Of a stretch of DNA of 41,373 nucleotides, positions 8,142-36,588 are shown piece after piece (the stretch's first letter is position 1; each line of letters opens with the position of its first letter). Under the pieces are notes generated by a model. That model was given only the letters and a program-made list of their open reading frames with translations, was not told the DNA's origin and did no database searches. This DNA is from a virus. Position numbers and translations under genes: made by a program. The stretch covers positions 1 to 41,373 of the IMG/VR virus record IMGVR_UViG_3300046736_000076; one strand, given 5' to 3'.

Positions 8142-9284
8142 ATGAGTGGTGGAAAAGGGGCACCGCCGCCGGTTGACTACGCGGCTGCGGCCAAGCAACA
8201 AGGCGCGGCGAACAAAGAGACTGCCATCACCGAATGGCTGCTCAACAACGTCAACCAGAAAACGCCGTACGGCAGCAAGACCATCACCAAGACCGGGCCG
8301 GGAGACACCGACTACGAGTTGACGACGACGCTCGACCCTGCGAGTCAGAAGCGACTCGACACGCAGAACGAGTTGCAGCAGGGCTATCTCGGGATGGGGG
8401 GAGCATCCCTCGACCGGGTGCGCGAGGCGCTGGGCAAGGACTTCGACACGTCCGGCCTTCCGGCGTTGACCGGCGGTCCGGGCGCTGGCCCCGGCATGGC
8501 CCGCGCCAACATGGCGGGCATCCCTGGAGTGTCGCAGGGTGGGGCGGAGATGGGGCCGCTGACGCGATCTATCATCGGTGCCGACCCCAACACGCGCGGC
8601 AAGGTCGAGGAAGCGTTGTACGACCGTTTCTCATCGCGCTTTGAGCCTGCGGCGCGGGCGGCGCAGGAGGCGCAGGACGCCAAGATCGCCAACATGGGCG
8701 GCGTCACCACATCAGCCGGTGCCAAGGCGATGCAGAACCAGTTGCTGACCAGCCAAGGCGATCAGCGGCGGCAGGCGATCAGCGACGCCATCGAAAAGGG
8801 CGGCGCGGAAGAATCGCGCATGCAGCAGTTGGCGCAGAACGCCGGTCAGTTCATGAACACGGCGGAAGGCCAGCGCTTCCAAGAGCAGCTTGCGAATAAG
8901 GAACAGGCCAACGCCGCGCAGAACCAATCGTTGCAACAGATGCTGTCCGTGCTGGGCTTCAACAACCAAGGCGCGCAGCAGGAGCATGGCAACGCGGTGG
9001 CCGGTGCGCAGTTGCAGAACCAAGCGCGCGGCCAGGGCATGCAGGAGTTGGCGAACCTGCGCAGCATGCCGGTGAACGAATTGATGGCGATGATTTCCGG
9101 CACCCAAGTCAACAACCCGCAGTTCCAGAACGTGACCGGCACGCAGATTCAGACCACACCGTGGATGCAGGCGGCGCAGAACACCGGGGCGCAGAACAAG
9201 GACATCACAACGGCGAAGAACGCGGGCATGAACAGCATGATGAGCGGGGTCGGTGCGCTGGGCGGCGCAGCGATGATGGCGTGA
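8142..9284 (+). CDS. Probable DNA-ejection / internal virion protein
   Basis: 380 residues with a GGAGACAGG ribosome-binding site. The N-terminal 100 residues contain a beta-type segment typical of podophage ejection proteins (QKTPYGSKTITKTGPGDTDY, ELTTTLDPASQKRLDTQNEL). The centre and C-terminal half are Gln/Ala-rich helices (RFSSRFEPAARAAQEAQDAK, NQLLTSQGDQRRQAISDAI) followed by 'ELMAMISGTQVNNPQF'. The 'NPYGS.TW...GPG...Y..T..L.P..Q..' pattern recurs in virion proteins encoded between tail tube and fibre. It presumably travels inside the head and exits with the DNA. It overlaps the next gene by TGATG. Confidence 0.7.
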   Translation: MSGGKGAPPPVDYAAAAKQQGAANKETAITEWLLNNVNQKTPYGSKTITKTGPGDTDYELTTTLDPASQKRLDTQNELQQGYLGMGGASLDRVREALGKDFDTSGLPALTGGPGAGPGMARANMAGIPGVSQGGAEMGPLTRSIIGADPNTRGKVEEALYDRFSSRFEPAARAAQEAQDAKIANMGGVTTSAGAKAMQNQLLTSQGDQRRQAISDAIEKGGAEESRMQQLAQNAGQFMNTAEGQRFQEQLANKEQANAAQNQSLQQMLSVLGFNNQGAQQEHGNAVAGAQLQNQARGQGMQELANLRSMPVNELMAMISGTQVNNPQFQNVTGTQIQTTPWMQAAQNTGAQNKDITTAKNAGMNSMMSGVGALGGAAMMA

Positions 9285-10009
9285 TGTTCAGCCTCGACGA
9301 CAAAGTGGTGATGCAGTTCTCGGGCGGCAGGGATGCGCTCGCCTGCCTGTACCTGCTGCGCGAGCATTGGGACCGCATGGTGGTGATGTGGTGCGACACC
9401 GGCGACGCGCTGCCGGAAACGCATGAACAGATGGCACAGGTGGCGGCGATGGTCAGCACCTTCATGACCGTGAAAGGCAATCAGCCTGCGCAAATTGAAC
9501 GCTGGGGGTTGCCCGCCGATGTGGTCAGCGTGTGGGGCACGCCGCTCGGGAAGATCATGCGTGTCAACAGCGTGATGTCGGCGGTGCAGACACCGTTTGC
9601 CTGCTGCGAGGAGAACATCTGGCGTCCGTTGGACCGTGCTTGCAAGTCGCTCGGTGCAACGGTCATCGTCCGTGGACAGCGCAACGACGAGGGCACCAAA
9701 GGTCCGATCCGCAGCGGCCACATCCAGAACGGCGTGAAGTATGTGTTCCCGTTGGAGGAGTGGACCGAGGGACAGGTGAACGCCTACTTGCAGTCGATGG
9801 GCGTGCCGCTGCCGAAGCACTACGGCTACTTCAATTCATCGTTGGATTGCGGACACTGCACGGCGTTCCTGTCCGAGAACGCGGGCAAGATGCGTTACCT
9901 GCGCGAACACCATCCTGACGTGCATGCCGATGTCGAGCAGCGTCTGGGCAAGATCATGCTCGGCGCGGCCACCGAGTTGCAGCATGTCGTACAAGCGATG
10001 AAGGAATAG
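9284..10009 (+). CDS. PAPS-reductase-like PP-loop protein
   Basis: 241 residues. It belongs to the adenine nucleotide alpha-hydrolase-like family of PAPS reductases, DndC and related enzymes: strand QFSGGRDALACLYLL carries the PP-loop (S13-G-G-R-D17), with Ala replacing the usual Ser after Asp. MVVMWCDTGDALPETHEQM is the family's second strand and helix. CC at 107-108, 'VIVRGQRNDE' at 128-136 and CGHC at 189-192 complete the core. The ECGLH-type catalytic motif of assimilatory reductases is absent, so sulfate reduction is unlikely; paired cysteines could bind a metal or Fe-S cluster, or take part in nucleic acid thiolation. It sits inside the virion gene block, coupled by TGATG to the gene before and two bases from the next. 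Confidence 0.85.
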   Translation: MFSLDDKVVMQFSGGRDALACLYLLREHWDRMVVMWCDTGDALPETHEQMAQVAAMVSTFMTVKGNQPAQIERWGLPADVVSVWGTPLGKIMRVNSVMSAVQTPFACCEENIWRPLDRACKSLGATVIVRGQRNDEGTKGPIRSGHIQNGVKYVFPLEEWTEGQVNAYLQSMGVPLPKHYGYFNSSLDCGHCTAFLSENAGKMRYLREHHPDVHADVEQRLGKIMLGAATELQHVVQAMKE

Positions 10010-31274: not shown

Positions 31275-31302
31275 ATTATACAACAAGTCAAAATTTTGGA
31301 AA
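31275..31302 (-). promoter_or_regulatory. Promoter of the replication operon
   Basis: Minus strand: TTTCCA (31302-31297), 16 bases, then a perfect TATAAT (31280-31275), 44 bases before the first ATG. The 13 bases CTTGTTGTATAAT are repeated exactly ahead of the CobS/CobT operon. It fits host sigma-70 recognition, consistent with the lack of a phage RNA polymerase. Confidence 0.7.
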
Positions 31303-31576: not shown

Positions 31577-31657
31577 CGGTTAGTGAGCGCTCACTAACCG
31601 AACGAGCGTTCGCTAACGTGAGTGAGCGCTCACTTCGTCCGTTAGTGAGCGCTCACT
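31577..31657. repeat. Palindrome array, left control region
   Basis: The centre AGTGAGCGCTCACT occurs three times (31582-31595, 31621-31634, 31644-31657). The first copy is extended to a perfect 24-bp palindrome whose half is CGGTTAGTGAGC (31577-31588). Between copies is a second type, CGAACG-AG-CGTTCG (31599-31612). The regular dyads suggest binding sites for a dimeric regulator. The same two motifs recur at 36.5 kb. Confidence 0.85.
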
Positions 31658-31788
31658 TCAACAAAATGCCCTGGGCGCCTGGTCGCGCTCGCCTGGTCGC
31701 GCCTGGTTCACCTGGTGCGATTCACCTGGAGTGCGTGAAACCGGCGGCGCCGGATAACCGGACAACGGACGCGCAGCCGGTGCGCTAG

Positions 31789-31965: not shown

Positions 31966-31992
31966 AAAAAAAGCCCAGCCGGACGGCTGGGC
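31966..31992 (-). terminator. Terminator of the CobS/CobT operon
   Basis: Read on the minus strand: GCCCAGCCG and CGGCTGGGC (31992-31984 and 31981-31973) form a perfect stem, followed directly by seven T (31972-31966). A second perfect hairpin with halves CGCCCGTGG/CCACGGGCG follows at 31945-31965. Confidence 0.9.
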
Positions 31993-32012
31993 GGAAAGGG
32001 AACGCCGGACGC

Positions 32013-32072
32013 CTAGTCGCAGCCGCACGCGGCGATGAACCAGACCAGAGCAAGCACGATTAGCCAGCCCAT
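32013..32072 (-). CDS. 19-residue lipoprotein
   Basis: Complete sequence MGWLIVLALVWFIAACGCD. It is a signal peptide with a consensus lipobox (IAAC) and would leave only a four-residue lipidated peptide, Cys-Gly-Cys-Asp. The ATG is one base after the CobT-like stop, with GGGAG supplied by the end of that gene, and the terminator follows 21 bases after the stop. The layout supports a real gene despite its size. It recalls the small lysis lipoproteins of colicin plasmids, but homology cannot be claimed. Confidence 0.65.
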   Translation of the reverse strand: MGWLIVLALVWFIAACGCD

Positions 32073-32073
32073 G

Positions 32074-34131
32074 TCAGTCTCCCATGCCGACGGCGCGCGC
32101 TTCCGGCGCGTCTGCCAGCGCGCGCAGCACTTCGCGCATACTGGCACTGCCTAGGTCGCCCGCGTGCGCCACAGTGGCGCGGTACGGGTACGCGTCGCAC
32201 GCTGGTTCGTTGCCAATCCCGATAGCGACGATTGACACGCCTAGCGCGCGGTACTTGTTGACCGCTTGCGTCATGACGCTCGCCGCGTCGCCGCAGCCGT
32301 CGGTAACGAATACCACAAGGCGGCGCCCAGCGTCTTGTTGCAGCACGCGCTCGCATACGCTGGTCAGCGCTGCTAGGTCCGGCGTATTCCCGTTCGCGTA
32401 CACGTCCGCAACGCGCGCATAACCGGCGGCGATTGGTTCAGCGAAGCCCTTTACGGTCGCCAGCTTGCAGCGCTTGCCGCGCAACGCGTCGCGCGCGTTT
32501 ACGCTTGTGTCAGCGCTGGACGCGTCAATTTCCGCGCGCGCCTGTTTTTCGGATTCACTCTCCGGTATGTATCCATGCTGATAGCCCATGTCGGGACCGA
32601 TAACCGACGCGTCGCGGAATACGCTAACGTCCACCAGCGCACCGGCATCGTGGCAGATATCGGCCAGCACAAGGGCTGCCATGCTCGCCGCGTGAATGTC
32701 GCCCTGCATGCTGCTACTGCCATCAATGCAGATAGCAACGGCGGCGCGTATGCCGTCGCGCATCGTGCGGCGCCGGAATACGTTGTCGGCGCCGGTAGCA
32801 ACGCGCGCCAGCGCGCCGGGGTTTACGCGTCCGCTACGCTTGCCAGCTTCCAGCGAATCGTTCGCGCTGCATTCCAGCACGCGCCGCAACGCGCCGCGCG
32901 TTACCGGCACGTTGCCAAGCTTTTTAATCTCACTGCGCGCATATTCGGCGCGGCTGCGCATGCTGTCGGTAATCGTTTCCGTTTCCACTACCGGCGGCTG
33001 CACGCTTCCGGATAAATCGTCGCAATCGCCGCGCAGCTTTATATTGCTGTCGCGTCCAGCGCTGCGCGCGTTGCCGTGCGGCTGGTCGCGCGGTGCATCG
33101 TCGCCGCTGTCGCCGGATTCGCTGTCGCCGTCAGCGTCGCCGCTGTCGCTGTTACCGTTGCTGTCGCCGCTGTCGTCGTCGCTCGGCTGGTCGCCGCTGT
33201 CGCCGTCGTCGCTCGGCTGGTCGCCGTCGTCGCTCGGCTGCGGATTGACGTGAACCGGCGGTTGGTCCGGCTGCGCATCCAGAATCGGAACCAGCGCATC
33301 CAGCACGGCGACCGTAACAACGTGCGTAAGTTGCGTGCCATCTTGCGCCGGACAATCGCGCAGTGCATCCATGCTCGCCGCAGCCGCATCGTAAATGCAA
33401 CGCAACGCGCTGGGCATGTCGTCCAACAAATCCGACGCGCCAGCATGCTCGCGCATTGCGTACGCAAGCGCGAACGGAAAATCGGCAATGTCGCTCGCGT
33501 CAAAATCGCCGCGCGCTTCCGCAAGGATAGCGCCCAGCGTCGCGCGCAAGCATTGCGCCGCACCGCGTACCATGCCGGACGCAATCAGCGCGCGCTCGAT
33601 TCGTACGTCCTCCAGCGCGTTTAGCACGTTGCGCGCGTATTCCGGCGATATGCCGACATGCTCATTGCGGAACGTGCTGGACGCGTACACGCTGCACGCT
33701 GTCGCCCATGCATTGGGGTTAGTGTGCAGCCAGTGGCCGCAGACTTCATGCAGGATGTACCCAAGGTACTCGTTCGCTTGCGCGCGCGACATGGTGCCGG
33801 ACGCCGGGAGCGCTGGTAAGTTAACGGCGCCGGTAACGTGCAGCCGTCCCTTTGCATCGTGTTGCCATTCATGACGCGTAAACGCGGTGCGTCCGACGTA
33901 CTGGATCACAATGTCGGTCGCGCGCATCGGCGCAACGTGCGGCAACGTGTTCCACGTCCGCGCGATAACGTCCAGCACCGCAGCCTTCAAGGCTGCGGGC
34001 TGCACGCGCGGCGCGTCGAATAACGGCGCGTCGCCAAAAATTGCAGCGGCGCGCGTGTTGGCAATGATAGCGGCGGCGCGTTGCTTGTCAGTCAACGCGC
34101 GCTTACGCTTAGTCGGTACGATCATCGTCAT
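32074..34131 (-). CDS. CobT-like VWA-domain protein
   Basis: 685 residues, ribosome-binding site AAGGGAAT inside the CobS-like gene. Residues 65-180: metallopeptidase-like segment with ILHEVCGHWLHTNP (H128-E..-H133, one residue longer than HExxH) and NALEDVRIER (171-180). Residues about 300-350: Asp/Ser/Gly-rich acidic linker typical of CobT. Residues 460-660: VWA domain with MIDAS DGSSS (470-474), GNTPD (Thr583) and VTDGCGD (Asp611). It pairs with the AAA+ gene upstream. In CobST the pair serves metal insertion into a corrin ring, but no corrin gene is present and the large CobN subunit is absent; phage CobST-like pairs more likely remodel a protein. Codons are less C-ended than in virion genes. 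Confidence 0.85.
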   Translation of the reverse strand: MTMIVPTKRKRALTDKQRAAAIIANTRAAAIFGDAPLFDAPRVQPAALKAAVLDVIARTWNTLPHVAPMRATDIVIQYVGRTAFTRHEWQHDAKGRLHVTGAVNLPALPASGTMSRAQANEYLGYILHEVCGHWLHTNPNAWATACSVYASSTFRNEHVGISPEYARNVLNALEDVRIERALIASGMVRGAAQCLRATLGAILAEARGDFDASDIADFPFALAYAMREHAGASDLLDDMPSALRCIYDAAAASMDALRDCPAQDGTQLTHVVTVAVLDALVPILDAQPDQPPVHVNPQPSDDGDQPSDDGDSGDQPSDDDSGDSNGNSDSGDADGDSESGDSGDDAPRDQPHGNARSAGRDSNIKLRGDCDDLSGSVQPPVVETETITDSMRSRAEYARSEIKKLGNVPVTRGALRRVLECSANDSLEAGKRSGRVNPGALARVATGADNVFRRRTMRDGIRAAVAICIDGSSSMQGDIHAASMAALVLADICHDAGALVDVSVFRDASVIGPDMGYQHGYIPESESEKQARAEIDASSADTSVNARDALRGKRCKLATVKGFAEPIAAGYARVADVYANGNTPDLAALTSVCERVLQQDAGRRLVVFVTDGCGDAASVMTQAVNKYRALGVSIVAIGIGNEPACDAYPYRATVAHAGDLGSASMREVLRALADAPEARAVGMGD

Positions 34132-34133
34132 GA

Positions 34134-35570
34134 TTAATTCCCTTGAACGAAGTTAGCGGCTGCCGCAAGCTCTGCCGCGTTAGGCCAATGCGTAGCAAAA
34201 CAGCCGCGCAGCTTTTCCCATGATTCAGGCGGCGCGCCCAGCGTTACCGCGCACTCATACGCGCTTTCCGCTGTCTCGCCGCATACAATCAGAATGCCCA
34301 TTGCAACGCACGCACGCAACCCCGGCGCGCCGCGTAGCTCGCCGCTGTCTGCCTCTGTGCGCGCAACGCGCGAGACTTTAATGATTGCGTTGGCAATCGC
34401 CGCGCTTAACTTGCGTCCGGTATCGCGCTGCACGACAGCCCGCAGCAACTTCGCCTCTTGCGCTTCCGGCAAGTACTGCATGCGAACCTTGAACATGAAC
34501 CGCGACAGCGTATCAATGCCCATGCCGCTATTGCGTCCCAAGTACTCGCCGCCGATATCGCCGTGGCCTAGCGTGTTGTCGGCTGCAAAATTCGCAACGT
34601 GATCGGCAACGCTGAGTAGTTCACCGACGCGCGGCAGCCGCACCGGCGCGCCGTTGCGTTCCAGTACCGGATTGAGCGCTGCAAGATAGCCTTGCGCCGC
34701 GTACGTTATTTCATCGTGCAACACGATGGCACCGGCAACCTTGAAACCTTGCGCCGCTGGGCCGTATTGAAATGACGTGTTGCCAGCTTCCAAACCCATA
34801 TCGCCCAGCACGTCGGCTGGTTCCGTTGCGCGCGTGTAGTTCACGCGGAAAAACGCACGTCCCAAGCGCGCCGCAAGCTGGCGCACCAGTTCCGTTTTGC
34901 CAGTGCCAGCCGGACCAGCCAGCCAAACGGGTACAGGCTTGTCAAGCGACAGCGAATGCAGACAGATACGCAAAACCTTGGCGTCGAATTGATACAGCGA
35001 ATCAATGATCGGCGCGTCGGGGTGACCGTAATGCAACAAGCTGCAATCGTCCGGCAGCAACGCGGCAACGTCCGGTTGGTCCGCGAACACTTCGCGCGCG
35101 CTGACGCGGCGCGGTGCGCCGTCATGATGCGCAACGTGAATCAACGGCGACGGCTGCATTGCGTCCAGCATGTCATTGATTACAACGTCCGCTGCAACGT
35201 CGGCAACGTGCGTTGCGAACGGCTGCGGCGCAACGGGTACCGGCGCGGCTGCTACAGCGGCTGCCACGGCGCGCGGCGCGAATACGGGTACGGTAACGGC
35301 TGGCGCCGTTCCCGGCGCGGCTGGCAGTGGCATTGCTGGCGCCGCTGGCGCGACGCTGGGCGCCGGGGGAACCACGGCGCCGCTGAGAATGCCGGACGCG
35401 AGCGCGTCGACGTGCGCTTGCGTGTAGTTACCTTGCGCAATCCATGCAGCAATGAAGCGCTGCAAGTCTGCCATCGTGTAACGCTTGTGATCGAAGCCGA
35501 TACGTCCGTTTCCGAGTTGCTTTAAAAGCTCGCCGAGTTGGCGAAAGTTCAGTTGCATGTACATGGTCAT
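34134..35570 (-). CDS. CobS-like MoxR-family AAA+ ATPase
   Basis: 478 residues. An N-terminal helical part (about 1-65, LNFRQLGELLKQLGNGRIGF) is followed by an Ala/Pro-rich linker (66-120), then the AAA+ core: VWLAGPAGTGKTELVRQLAA (Walker A 219-226), AIVLHDEITYAAQGYLAALN (Walker B 281-287, His in place of the usual Leu/Asp neighbour), and 'GHGDIGGEYLGRNSGMGIDTLSRF', the CobS-type sensor/arginine-finger region. It should form a hexameric ring that works with the VWA protein. The start overlaps the upstream stop (ATGA); ATG 35564 has better ribosome-binding-site spacing. Confidence 0.88.
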   Translation of the reverse strand: MTMYMQLNFRQLGELLKQLGNGRIGFDHKRYTMADLQRFIAAWIAQGNYTQAHVDALASGILSGAVVPPAPSVAPAAPAMPLPAAPGTAPAVTVPVFAPRAVAAAVAAAPVPVAPQPFATHVADVAADVVINDMLDAMQPSPLIHVAHHDGAPRRVSAREVFADQPDVAALLPDDCSLLHYGHPDAPIIDSLYQFDAKVLRICLHSLSLDKPVPVWLAGPAGTGKTELVRQLAARLGRAFFRVNYTRATEPADVLGDMGLEAGNTSFQYGPAAQGFKVAGAIVLHDEITYAAQGYLAALNPVLERNGAPVRLPRVGELLSVADHVANFAADNTLGHGDIGGEYLGRNSGMGIDTLSRFMFKVRMQYLPEAQEAKLLRAVVQRDTGRKLSAAIANAIIKVSRVARTEADSGELRGAPGLRACVAMGILIVCGETAESAYECAVTLGAPPESWEKLRGCFATHWPNAAELAAAANFVQGN

Positions 35571-35752
35571 TTCCTTTTGGATTGTGATGCATTGAATTGC
35601 GCGAGCGCTTGCGACAGCGCGCGTGCTTGCGGCGATTGCCGCGCTTGCGTTTCCTTGTCAACGTAATGCAGGAAGGCAAGCAACGCAACGAACAACAACA
35701 TCAAGACGGCGAGCGCGGCGCCGGGATACAGCGCGATTAGGTACAGTGCCAT
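35567..35752 (-). CDS. 61-residue membrane protein of the CobS/CobT operon
   Basis: Starts MALYLIALYPGAALAVLMLL: one long hydrophobic segment (about 2-27) followed by a soluble charged helix (YVDKETQARQSPQARALSQA). ATG 35752 overlaps the upstream stop (TGATG) and the TGA overlaps the CobS-like start. It could anchor the ATPase pair at the membrane; inference. Confidence 0.75.
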   Translation of the reverse strand: MALYLIALYPGAALAVLMLLFVALLAFLHYVDKETQARQSPQARALSQALAQFNASQSKRK

Positions 35753-35952
35753 CACGCGCACCGTTGCGTGATGGCATGCCGCACGTTGCAGACTGCGCAA
35801 CGGTGCAACGCGCTTGCGTTGTACAGCATGGCAACGGCGGCGACGCTGGCGCGCGGCGCCGGTACTGCAAACGCAACGCGCGTCGTTTCCACGATGCGCG
35901 CGGTGCGGTGCGCGGCGAGCGCTTGGTGCGCGCGATACTCTGACTGTCTCAT
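35752..35952 (-). CDS. 66-residue Cys-containing protein, first gene of the CobS/CobT operon
   Basis: Starts MRQSEYRAHQALAAHRTARI; basic and Ala-rich, with HRCAVCNVRHAITQRC near the C-terminus, giving CxxC plus a third Cys and several His that might bind a metal. Ribosome-binding site AGGGAAG. It lies 49 bases from the candidate promoter. No family recognised. Confidence 0.65.
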   Translation of the reverse strand: MRQSEYRAHQALAAHRTARIVETTRVAFAVPAPRASVAAVAMLYNASALHRCAVCNVRHAITQRCA

Positions 35953-36001
35953 TCTGGGCTTCCCTAGTTAGCGCGCTGGCCTATCCAGACGCGTCCGCGT
36001 G

Positions 36002-36014
36002 ATTATACAACAAG
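36002..36014 (-). promoter_or_regulatory. Promoter element of the CobS/CobT operon
   Basis: The minus-strand CTTGTTGTATAAT contains a perfect -10 and is identical over 13 bases to the element before the replication operon (31287-31275). Distance to the ATG is also similar (49 against 43 bases). No clear -35 is seen, so the conserved CTTGTTG may itself be recognised. Confidence 0.65.
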
Positions 36015-36041
36015 CCTTTGCGGTTTAGGGAAGGGAAATTT

Positions 36042-36325
36042 AGGTTGCCAGACTCAGGTTGCCAGACTCGGCACCAGGGGCGCCCTATTGAGAGTAGGGT
36101 TATCGAACGATCGTTCGGTTTTTGGATGATGACCCTAGCCGCTGTCAGGTTATCAGATAGTTTCCAGACTAATGCAACAAAATAGCGACGCTTTATCGTT
36201 TGGATTCAATGGTTAACAGGTTGCCAGACTACTTTATATAAACGGAGTTGGGAAATATATAAAAATAGGGATATATGCCCATAAAATATTCCCACCAGAG
36301 TGTTGAGCAAGTAGTCTGGCAACCC
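36042..36325. repeat. 14-bp iterons around an AT-rich tract: candidate origin
   Basis: AGGTTGCCAGACTC occurs twice in perfect tandem (36042-36055, 36056-36069). AGGTTGCCAGACTA lies at 36218-36231 and an inverted copy (TAGTCTGGCAACCC) at 36312-36325. Weaker copies are at 36147-36160 and 36158-36171. Between the third and the inverted copy is a strongly AT-rich stretch (36231-36292) such as origins use for opening. Iterons plus AT-rich DNA in a non-coding region beside early genes are the classic layout of a theta-type origin. Confidence 0.6.
36104..36117. repeat. Perfect 14-bp palindrome
   Basis: CGAACGATCGTTCG, followed by GTTTTT. It shares the CGAACG/CGTTCG half-sites seen in both palindrome arrays, so it may be a further site for the same regulator; a weak rightward terminator is an alternative. 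Confidence 0.6.
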
Positions 36326-36441
36326 GGCAACCGTCCGCGCCACTGCGGAGCGCGTCCGGCGCGCGGCTTACGGCGCATGCAAACCTTGCGCTGTAAGGCT
36401 ATGCCCGTCGTCCGTTGTCCGGCGTCCGTTGTACGTTGTAT

Positions 36442-36512: not shown

Positions 36513-36588
36513 GTGAGCGCTTACTAACGTGAGCGAACGCTCGTTCGGTGAGCGAACGCTCGTTCGGCCCCCCAGTGAGCACTCACTG
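36513..36588. repeat. Palindrome array, right control region
   Basis: GTGAGCGCTTAC (36513-36524, one mismatch from palindrome), then GTGAGCGAACGCTCGTTCG twice in perfect tandem (36529-36547, 36548-36566), then AGTGAGCACTCACT (36574-36587, one base from the left array motif). The shared half-sites GTGAGC and CGAACG/CGTTCG tie this array to the one at 31.58-31.66 kb. Confidence 0.85.

Follow-up and report, generated by a model that had tools for sequence, protein, structure and literature searches.

Published studies have interpreted phage genes named cobS and cobT as auxiliary genes for cobalamin (vitamin B12). Viral cobST was proposed to raise cobalamin through the host CobN for phage replication, and the pair was counted in the cyanophage core genome (Liu et al. 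2021, PMC8651126). A cobalamin-synthesis reading was also given for the Microcystis phage Mae-Yong1326-1 (PMC9503304), and in both papers the label 'peptidase' was held to be a mis-annotation. For group 2.2 jumbo phages, a pair of a MoxR AAA+ protein and a vWA-metallopeptidase was proposed to be a chaperone-peptidase in virion assembly (Iyer et al. 2021, PMC7824862), so that two published readings, CobN hijack and chaperone-peptidase, are in conflict. In NorQD, the ring pore takes up a finger of the VWA domain, and the linker that joins the VWA to the N-terminal domain is twisted as ATP is turned over (PMC13036017).

The phage locus analysed here carries the same AAA+ and VWA families in adjacent genes as the viral cobST cluster (PMC8651126, PMC9503304), and its gene order is the same as in Mae-Yong1326-1. 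The pair is also likened, by description, to that of the group 2.2 jumbo phages, with the same two proteins and an N-terminal metallopeptidase domain in the vWA protein (PMC7824862), but here it is found in a 41-kb phage, at an exchangeable locus and in a context suggestive of early genes more than of virion assembly, with HExxGH in place of HExxH. With a probability of about 0.55, the pair is predicted to be a machine that is expressed early and uses ATP to remodel, and probably also to cut, a host or phage protein, and not a cobalt chelatase.

The window, which is the whole stretch of 41,373 bases that was analysed, is a whole IMG/VR virus record (IMGVR_UViG_3300046736_000076) with a GC content of 63.8%. 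Its first 127 bases are repeated at the end of the record, and this direct end repeat indicates a circular, essentially complete phage genome of about 41.25 kb. The forward strand encodes terminase, portal, major capsid protein (MCP), amidase and other virion proteins, and the reverse strand encodes DNA polymerase, helicases, exonuclease and DNA methyltransferase. The AAA+/VWA cassette, on the minus strand, has the replication operon on one side and the terminase genes on the other. No tRNA was found in the 41-kb genome, and neither the phage DNA similarity search nor the Rfam search with the window gave a match. The features of the cassette, in the order of its transcription, and the related motif at the replication operon are as follows.

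36002..36013 (-), promoter-like motif TTGTTGTATAAT of the extended -10 type, exact match, upstream of the cassette
35752..35952 (-), small ORF of 66 aa with three Cys near the C-terminus (CxxC), Shine-Dalgarno-like AGGGA upstream
35567..35752 (-), small ORF of 61 aa with its ATG at 35752 and a single hydrophobic segment, no family match
34134..35570 (-), MoxR-class AAA+ ATPase of 478 aa (phage 'CobS'), with AAA_5, bpMoxR and PHROG_249 profile matches
32074..34131 (-), metallopeptidase-type/acidic linker/VWA-MIDAS protein of 685 aa (phage 'CobT')
33733..33750 (-), HEVCGH, residues 128-133, variant zincin motif in the family alignment, one residue longer than HExxH
33595..33621 (-), NALEDVRIE, residues 171-179, with E174 as candidate third metal ligand, from the alignment of 59 homologues
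32971..33276 (-), acidic linker, disordered and rich in Asp/Ser, about residues 286-387, from the sequence and pLDDT <50 over most of it
32710..32724 (-), MIDAS DGSSS, residues 470-474, with D611 as the distal MIDAS Asp, from the alignment of 59 homologues
32013..32072 (-), hydrophobic ORF of 19 aa, MGWLIVLALVWFIAACGCD, doubtful lipopeptide, ribosome-site-like GGGAG 7 nt upstream
31973..31992 (-), intrinsic-terminator-like GC-rich hairpin GCCCAGCCGTCCGGCTGGGC followed by T7, 3' of the cassette
31275..31286 (-), the other exact TTGTTGTATAAT, where the replication operon starts

The preliminary description of this DNA had proposed a MoxR-type AAA+/VWA operon with a CobT-like acidic linker and its own promoter and terminator, and these points were borne out: the AAA_5, CobT and VWA profiles all gave matches, the linker is present and disordered in the model, and promoter-like and terminator-like signals lie at the two ends, although the hairpin scan as a whole gave no more terminator-like sites than shuffled sequences. 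The 478-aa protein matched AAA_5 (E=2.7e-16), bpMoxR and PHROG_249 (8.6e-35), and its catalytic set is complete, with Walker A G219-K225, Walker B D286 and E287, N332, R357 and R404 invariant in an alignment of 60 homologues. In the AF2 model, pLDDT was mostly >90 across the AAA core, and the best Foldseek matches were CbbQ2 and NorQ (TMt about 0.84-0.87). Both fold and motifs thus place the protein in the MoxR superfamily (CbbQ/NorQ type). Among NorQ/NorD and CbbQ/CbbO, the motor proteins are the closest structural counterparts of the AAA+ core and NorD is that of the VWA domain, which also matched the MIDAS domain of MDN1 (Midasin). By analogy, the phage pair likely has the same motor-adaptor mechanics as these systems. 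The cellular systems differ in having dedicated cellular substrates, and PMC13036017 mentions no peptidase for NorQD.

The 685-aa protein scored barely above the Pfam cut-offs for both CobT (26.4 bits, cut-off 26.1) and VWA (26.7 bits, cut-off 23.8), and matched phrog_1576 at 4.5e-18. Pairwise BLAST and phmmer searches gave no phage match and no PDB match, so the homology of this protein rests on profiles, and the 59 homologues aligned are about 17-27% identical to it. An N-terminal metallopeptidase-type domain had been overlooked in the preliminary description. A zincin-type pattern, HExxH...NxxEDxxxE, is present in the N-terminal half of nearly every homologue, and the residues invariant in all 59 belong mostly to the metal site (H128, E129, H133, E174, D175, E179) and to a complete MIDAS (D470, S472, S474, D611), the remaining ones being M1, A83 and G434. 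Since the patterns of the VWA-profile scan overlap the motif and introduce a bias, the motif was recounted on loci fetched via the AAA gene alone, and HExxH...ED...E was kept in 66 of these 70 loci; two of the other four were truncated. The full pattern also occurs in two cyanophage CobS 'peptidase' partners and in one Klebsiella plasmid protein, and the partners in Gordonia phage Lidong and ICP2 have HExxH, with a second half that did not match the pattern used. In five loci (L088, L089, L104, L133, L210) the peptidase and VWA portions are encoded by two neighbouring ORFs, which shows that the protein is modular. A further HExxH-like string, HEWQH at residues 87-91, did not align with the family motif and was set aside. 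The N-terminal domain is probably a gluzincin-type metallopeptidase, and its metal binding and proteolytic activity are predicted from these conserved residues.

The cellular CobS/CobT pair (PDB 9uka, 9ujv; S. meliloti pSymB) has the same overall architecture, with acidic linker, MIDAS and AAA+ core, and the phage-family profile matches CobT from the ED motif on (9uka_G, 1.3e-70). S. meliloti CobT, the one cellular CobT compared in full, aligns over the metal-site region but has no HExxH and carries EQ where the family has ED. The window protein, with HExxGH and ED, is thus unlike a CobT-type VWA subunit without HExxH. Because the metal site is near-invariant in the phage family and missing in S. 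meliloti CobT, 'peptidase' appears to be a better founded label than 'CobT' for the phage VWA protein, and this motif comparison points in the direction opposite to the mis-annotation reading and agrees with the peptidase domain described in PMC7824862. For the same reason, 'CobS/CobT' and 'porphyrin biosynthesis' are misleading labels. A plasmid search with a CobT query gave matches in about 950 records, of which many are enterobacterial and about 110 kb long (phage-plasmid size). In hundreds of enterobacterial plasmid records the CobT-like gene is labelled porphyrin biosynthesis or hypothetical. In the one plasmid examined an AAA-family ATPase gene is adjacent to the CobT-like gene, and the single protein inspected for the motif, L238:4771-6783, keeps HEVAH.

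In the window, the VWA protein keeps all metal-site residues and HExxH is lengthened to HExxxH by a one-residue insertion (HEVCGH), which in the aligned family is common only to the window and L167 (HEVAGH). As the insertion occurs in two independent contigs, a sequencing slip is unlikely. In the AlphaFold model (pLDDT >90 here), HEVCGH is inside helix 116-136 and E174 inside helix 163-185, so that the two motif halves are predicted to lie in two long helices, which is the gluzincin layout. The inserted residue could have disabled the metal site, leaving a remodelling machine without protease activity in which the VWA protein is a pseudo-enzyme adaptor of the CobT or NorD type. The restriction of the insertion to two members of the aligned family fits this alternative, as does cellular CobT, a working chelatase subunit without the motif. 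Against it, all six metal-site residues are kept, the insertion recurs with these residues in a distant protein, and HExxxH is an active metal site in three other peptidases, namely DPP III, with an enlargement of one helical turn (PMC3268031), TldD (PMC5810440) and TMCP (PMC10499314). These three serve as a motif precedent and no homology is claimed; no M49 family was among the Pfam matches at E<=0.01, and the 50 top-ranked structural matches of the VWA protein did not include DPP III. A pseudo-enzyme is considered unlikely, but is the most probable of the alternatives.

To describe the distribution of the pair, IMG/VR was scanned with AAA+ and VWA profiles, and 152 loci with either gene were found. 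Both genes were present in 140 of these, co-oriented in every case and in either order, and lay within 500 bp of each other in 137. They are adjacent and co-oriented in the window as well, and the AAA and VWA trees, whose deep branch support was not relied on, give the window the same neighbours (L091-L097, L165 and L167). Relatives of the AAA+ protein occur in 533 annotated phage records, and a genome scan with an alignment smaller than the 59-protein one gave 20 bacterial loci; single-sequence IMG/VR scans with the AAA+ or the VWA protein found no close relative. In six loci, an unknown gene was placed by clustering directly before the AAA+ gene, for example L165:2741-3415 (phrog_6361) and L167:2724-3296. 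The window has no such gene at this place, and L165 and L167 belong to its nearest clade.

The cassette had been described as a self-contained set of five genes. The two short upstream genes are indeed linked to the AAA+ gene through overlapping stop and start codons (TGATG between the two small ORFs, ATGA at the AAA+ start), but the five-gene set was not found in the nearest clade, where the AAA+/VWA pair occurs without the small genes of the window. The preliminary description had named relatives with the two genes apart and without the small genes as evidence against such a unit; the small genes are missing as stated there, and the pair stays together. The 66-aa ORF had no family match and, like the 19-aa ORF, is not conserved in related loci. 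The latter had been called a tiny lipoprotein; an ORF with a good ribosome site is present, but its n-region is uncharged and, counted from the lipobox Cys, just four residues are left. The conserved unit is the AAA+ and VWA genes only.

To compare the locus in close relatives, 83 TerL-related loci were collected by a TerL scan. With the window as positive control, the AAA+/VWA pair was not detected by profile in any of them, and as many are fragments, this absence holds for the well-covered loci. A near relative, L008 (record G005), has an MCP 93% identical, a portal segment 87% identical and a TerL about 82-83% identical to those of the window, and between the same two flanking genes it carries only small ORFs without assigned function. 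In G003 (78% capsid identity), a p97/CDC48-type AAA+ protein of 550 aa is encoded at the matching place (L084:17356-19008, minus strand; PF00004 2.9e-26; best PDB matches p97). The N-terminal part of this protein has no Pfam match, and its AAA+ part matches PADLOC IetA models (3e-26). The codon usage of the cassette is distinct from both virion and replication genes, with an RSCU distance from the virion genes of 0.111, against 0.043 for the replication genes, and GC3 is 0.67-0.74 in the AAA+ and VWA genes and 0.78-0.87 in the virion genes. The earlier view of an acquired unit with deviant codons is thus upheld, and from the small ORFs in L008, the p97-type protein in G003 and the absence of the pair in TerL-related loci, the cassette is best read as lineage cargo in a slot that relatives fill differently.

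Palindrome-bearing control regions had been taken as borders of the cassette. This was rejected, since L008, without the cassette, has comparable palindromes and AT-rich repeats on both sides of the locus. In the window, AGTGAGCGCTCACT-like palindrome clusters lie on either side (31577-31659 and 36513-36586), with similar ones in L008, and they are possible operators of a phage regulator. An AT-rich island at 36040-36330, in which AGGTTGCCAGACT occurs three times and once more in inverted form (36313-36324), is a candidate replication origin or control region in the GC-rich genome, and the corresponding region of L008 (about 9160-9290) is likewise AT-rich and contains repeats.

With up to two mismatches, TTGTTGTATAAT was found in the genome at the cassette and the replication operon only (0.4 expected by chance), and it is also exact at the replication operon of L008. 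Genes around the pair in other phages encode DnaE (52 loci), sigma factor (37), primase (21) and ligase (14), many of these counts coming from one phage group (RHEph10-like) and hence not independent, and in cyanophages the neighbours are clamp and clamp loader. The replication and transcription neighbours, together with the promoter-like motif common to the replication operon, favour an early role over virion assembly. A literature search on the expression timing of cyanophage cobS found no paper.

Slightly less probable than a pseudo-enzyme is a chaperone-peptidase in virion assembly, with maturation or processing of a structural protein; such a role was put forward for group 2.2 jumbo phages, whose pair has this domain architecture. 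A MoxR-vWA pair acts likewise in virion assembly in Acidianus two-tailed virus, and the cassette adjoins the TerS/TerL/portal genes, on the opposite strand. However, L008 lacks the pair despite its closely similar capsid and portal proteins, and the promoter-like motif and recurrent neighbours described above also speak against assembly.

Cargo for superinfection exclusion or counter-defence in the variable locus is again slightly less probable. It would agree with the varying content of the locus and the deviant codon usage, but in the PADLOC library the VWA protein had no match and the AAA+ protein only weak ones over the P-loop, and a pair that has been assigned to the cyanophage core genome and often lies in replication modules would be unusual as exclusion cargo.

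That viral CobST, with host CobN, raises cobalamin for phage replication is very improbable in spite of the published proposal and the profile homology to CobT and CobS (6.6e-85), since the AAA+ protein reaches 37 bits against the CobS equivalog TIGR01650 (cut-off 558.55) and its profile matches Midasin, NorQ and CbbQ too, the metalloprotease-type site is missing in S. meliloti CobT, and CobN (PF02514), which the host may encode, was absent from the complete phage genome in a search that was positive in 5 of 14 control genomes, as the preliminary description had also stated in doubting cobalt chelation.

For the preferred remodelling machine, the following mechanism is proposed. The AAA+ protein would form a MoxR-type hexamer, and the VWA domain of its partner would dock on the ring and put a loop into the pore, in the manner of NorD with NorQ. 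ATP hydrolysis would then twist or stretch the partner's linker while the MIDAS and the N-terminal domain grip a substrate protein. The N-terminal gluzincin-type domain, in its HExxGH form in this phage, would probably cut the remodelled substrate, and as the far end of the linker carries the metal site, remodelling and cutting may be coupled, again by analogy with NorQD. The machine would be made with the early (replication) genes and act on a host or phage protein in take-over or replication; a role in host take-over or defence evasion, as suggested before, is possible.

The AAA+/VWA pair type is already in the literature; new here are the HExxGH form of the metal site, the AAA+ locus whose content is exchanged between relatives, and the test of metal-site conservation across the family. 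As the metal site is near-invariant and missing in the cellular CobT checked, the conflict between the two published readings is testable with one point mutant, and the HExxGH variant offers a natural test of whether the site is catalytic, and how. More tentatively, phage 'CobS/CobT' may be widespread ATP-driven metalloproteases in which a MoxR ring twists a zinc protease tethered through the VWA domain; produced along with the replication genes, they would take apart or mature some host or phage complex. In this lineage the active site would have moved independently to a DPP III-like HExxGH, in a slot refilled with different AAA+ machines.
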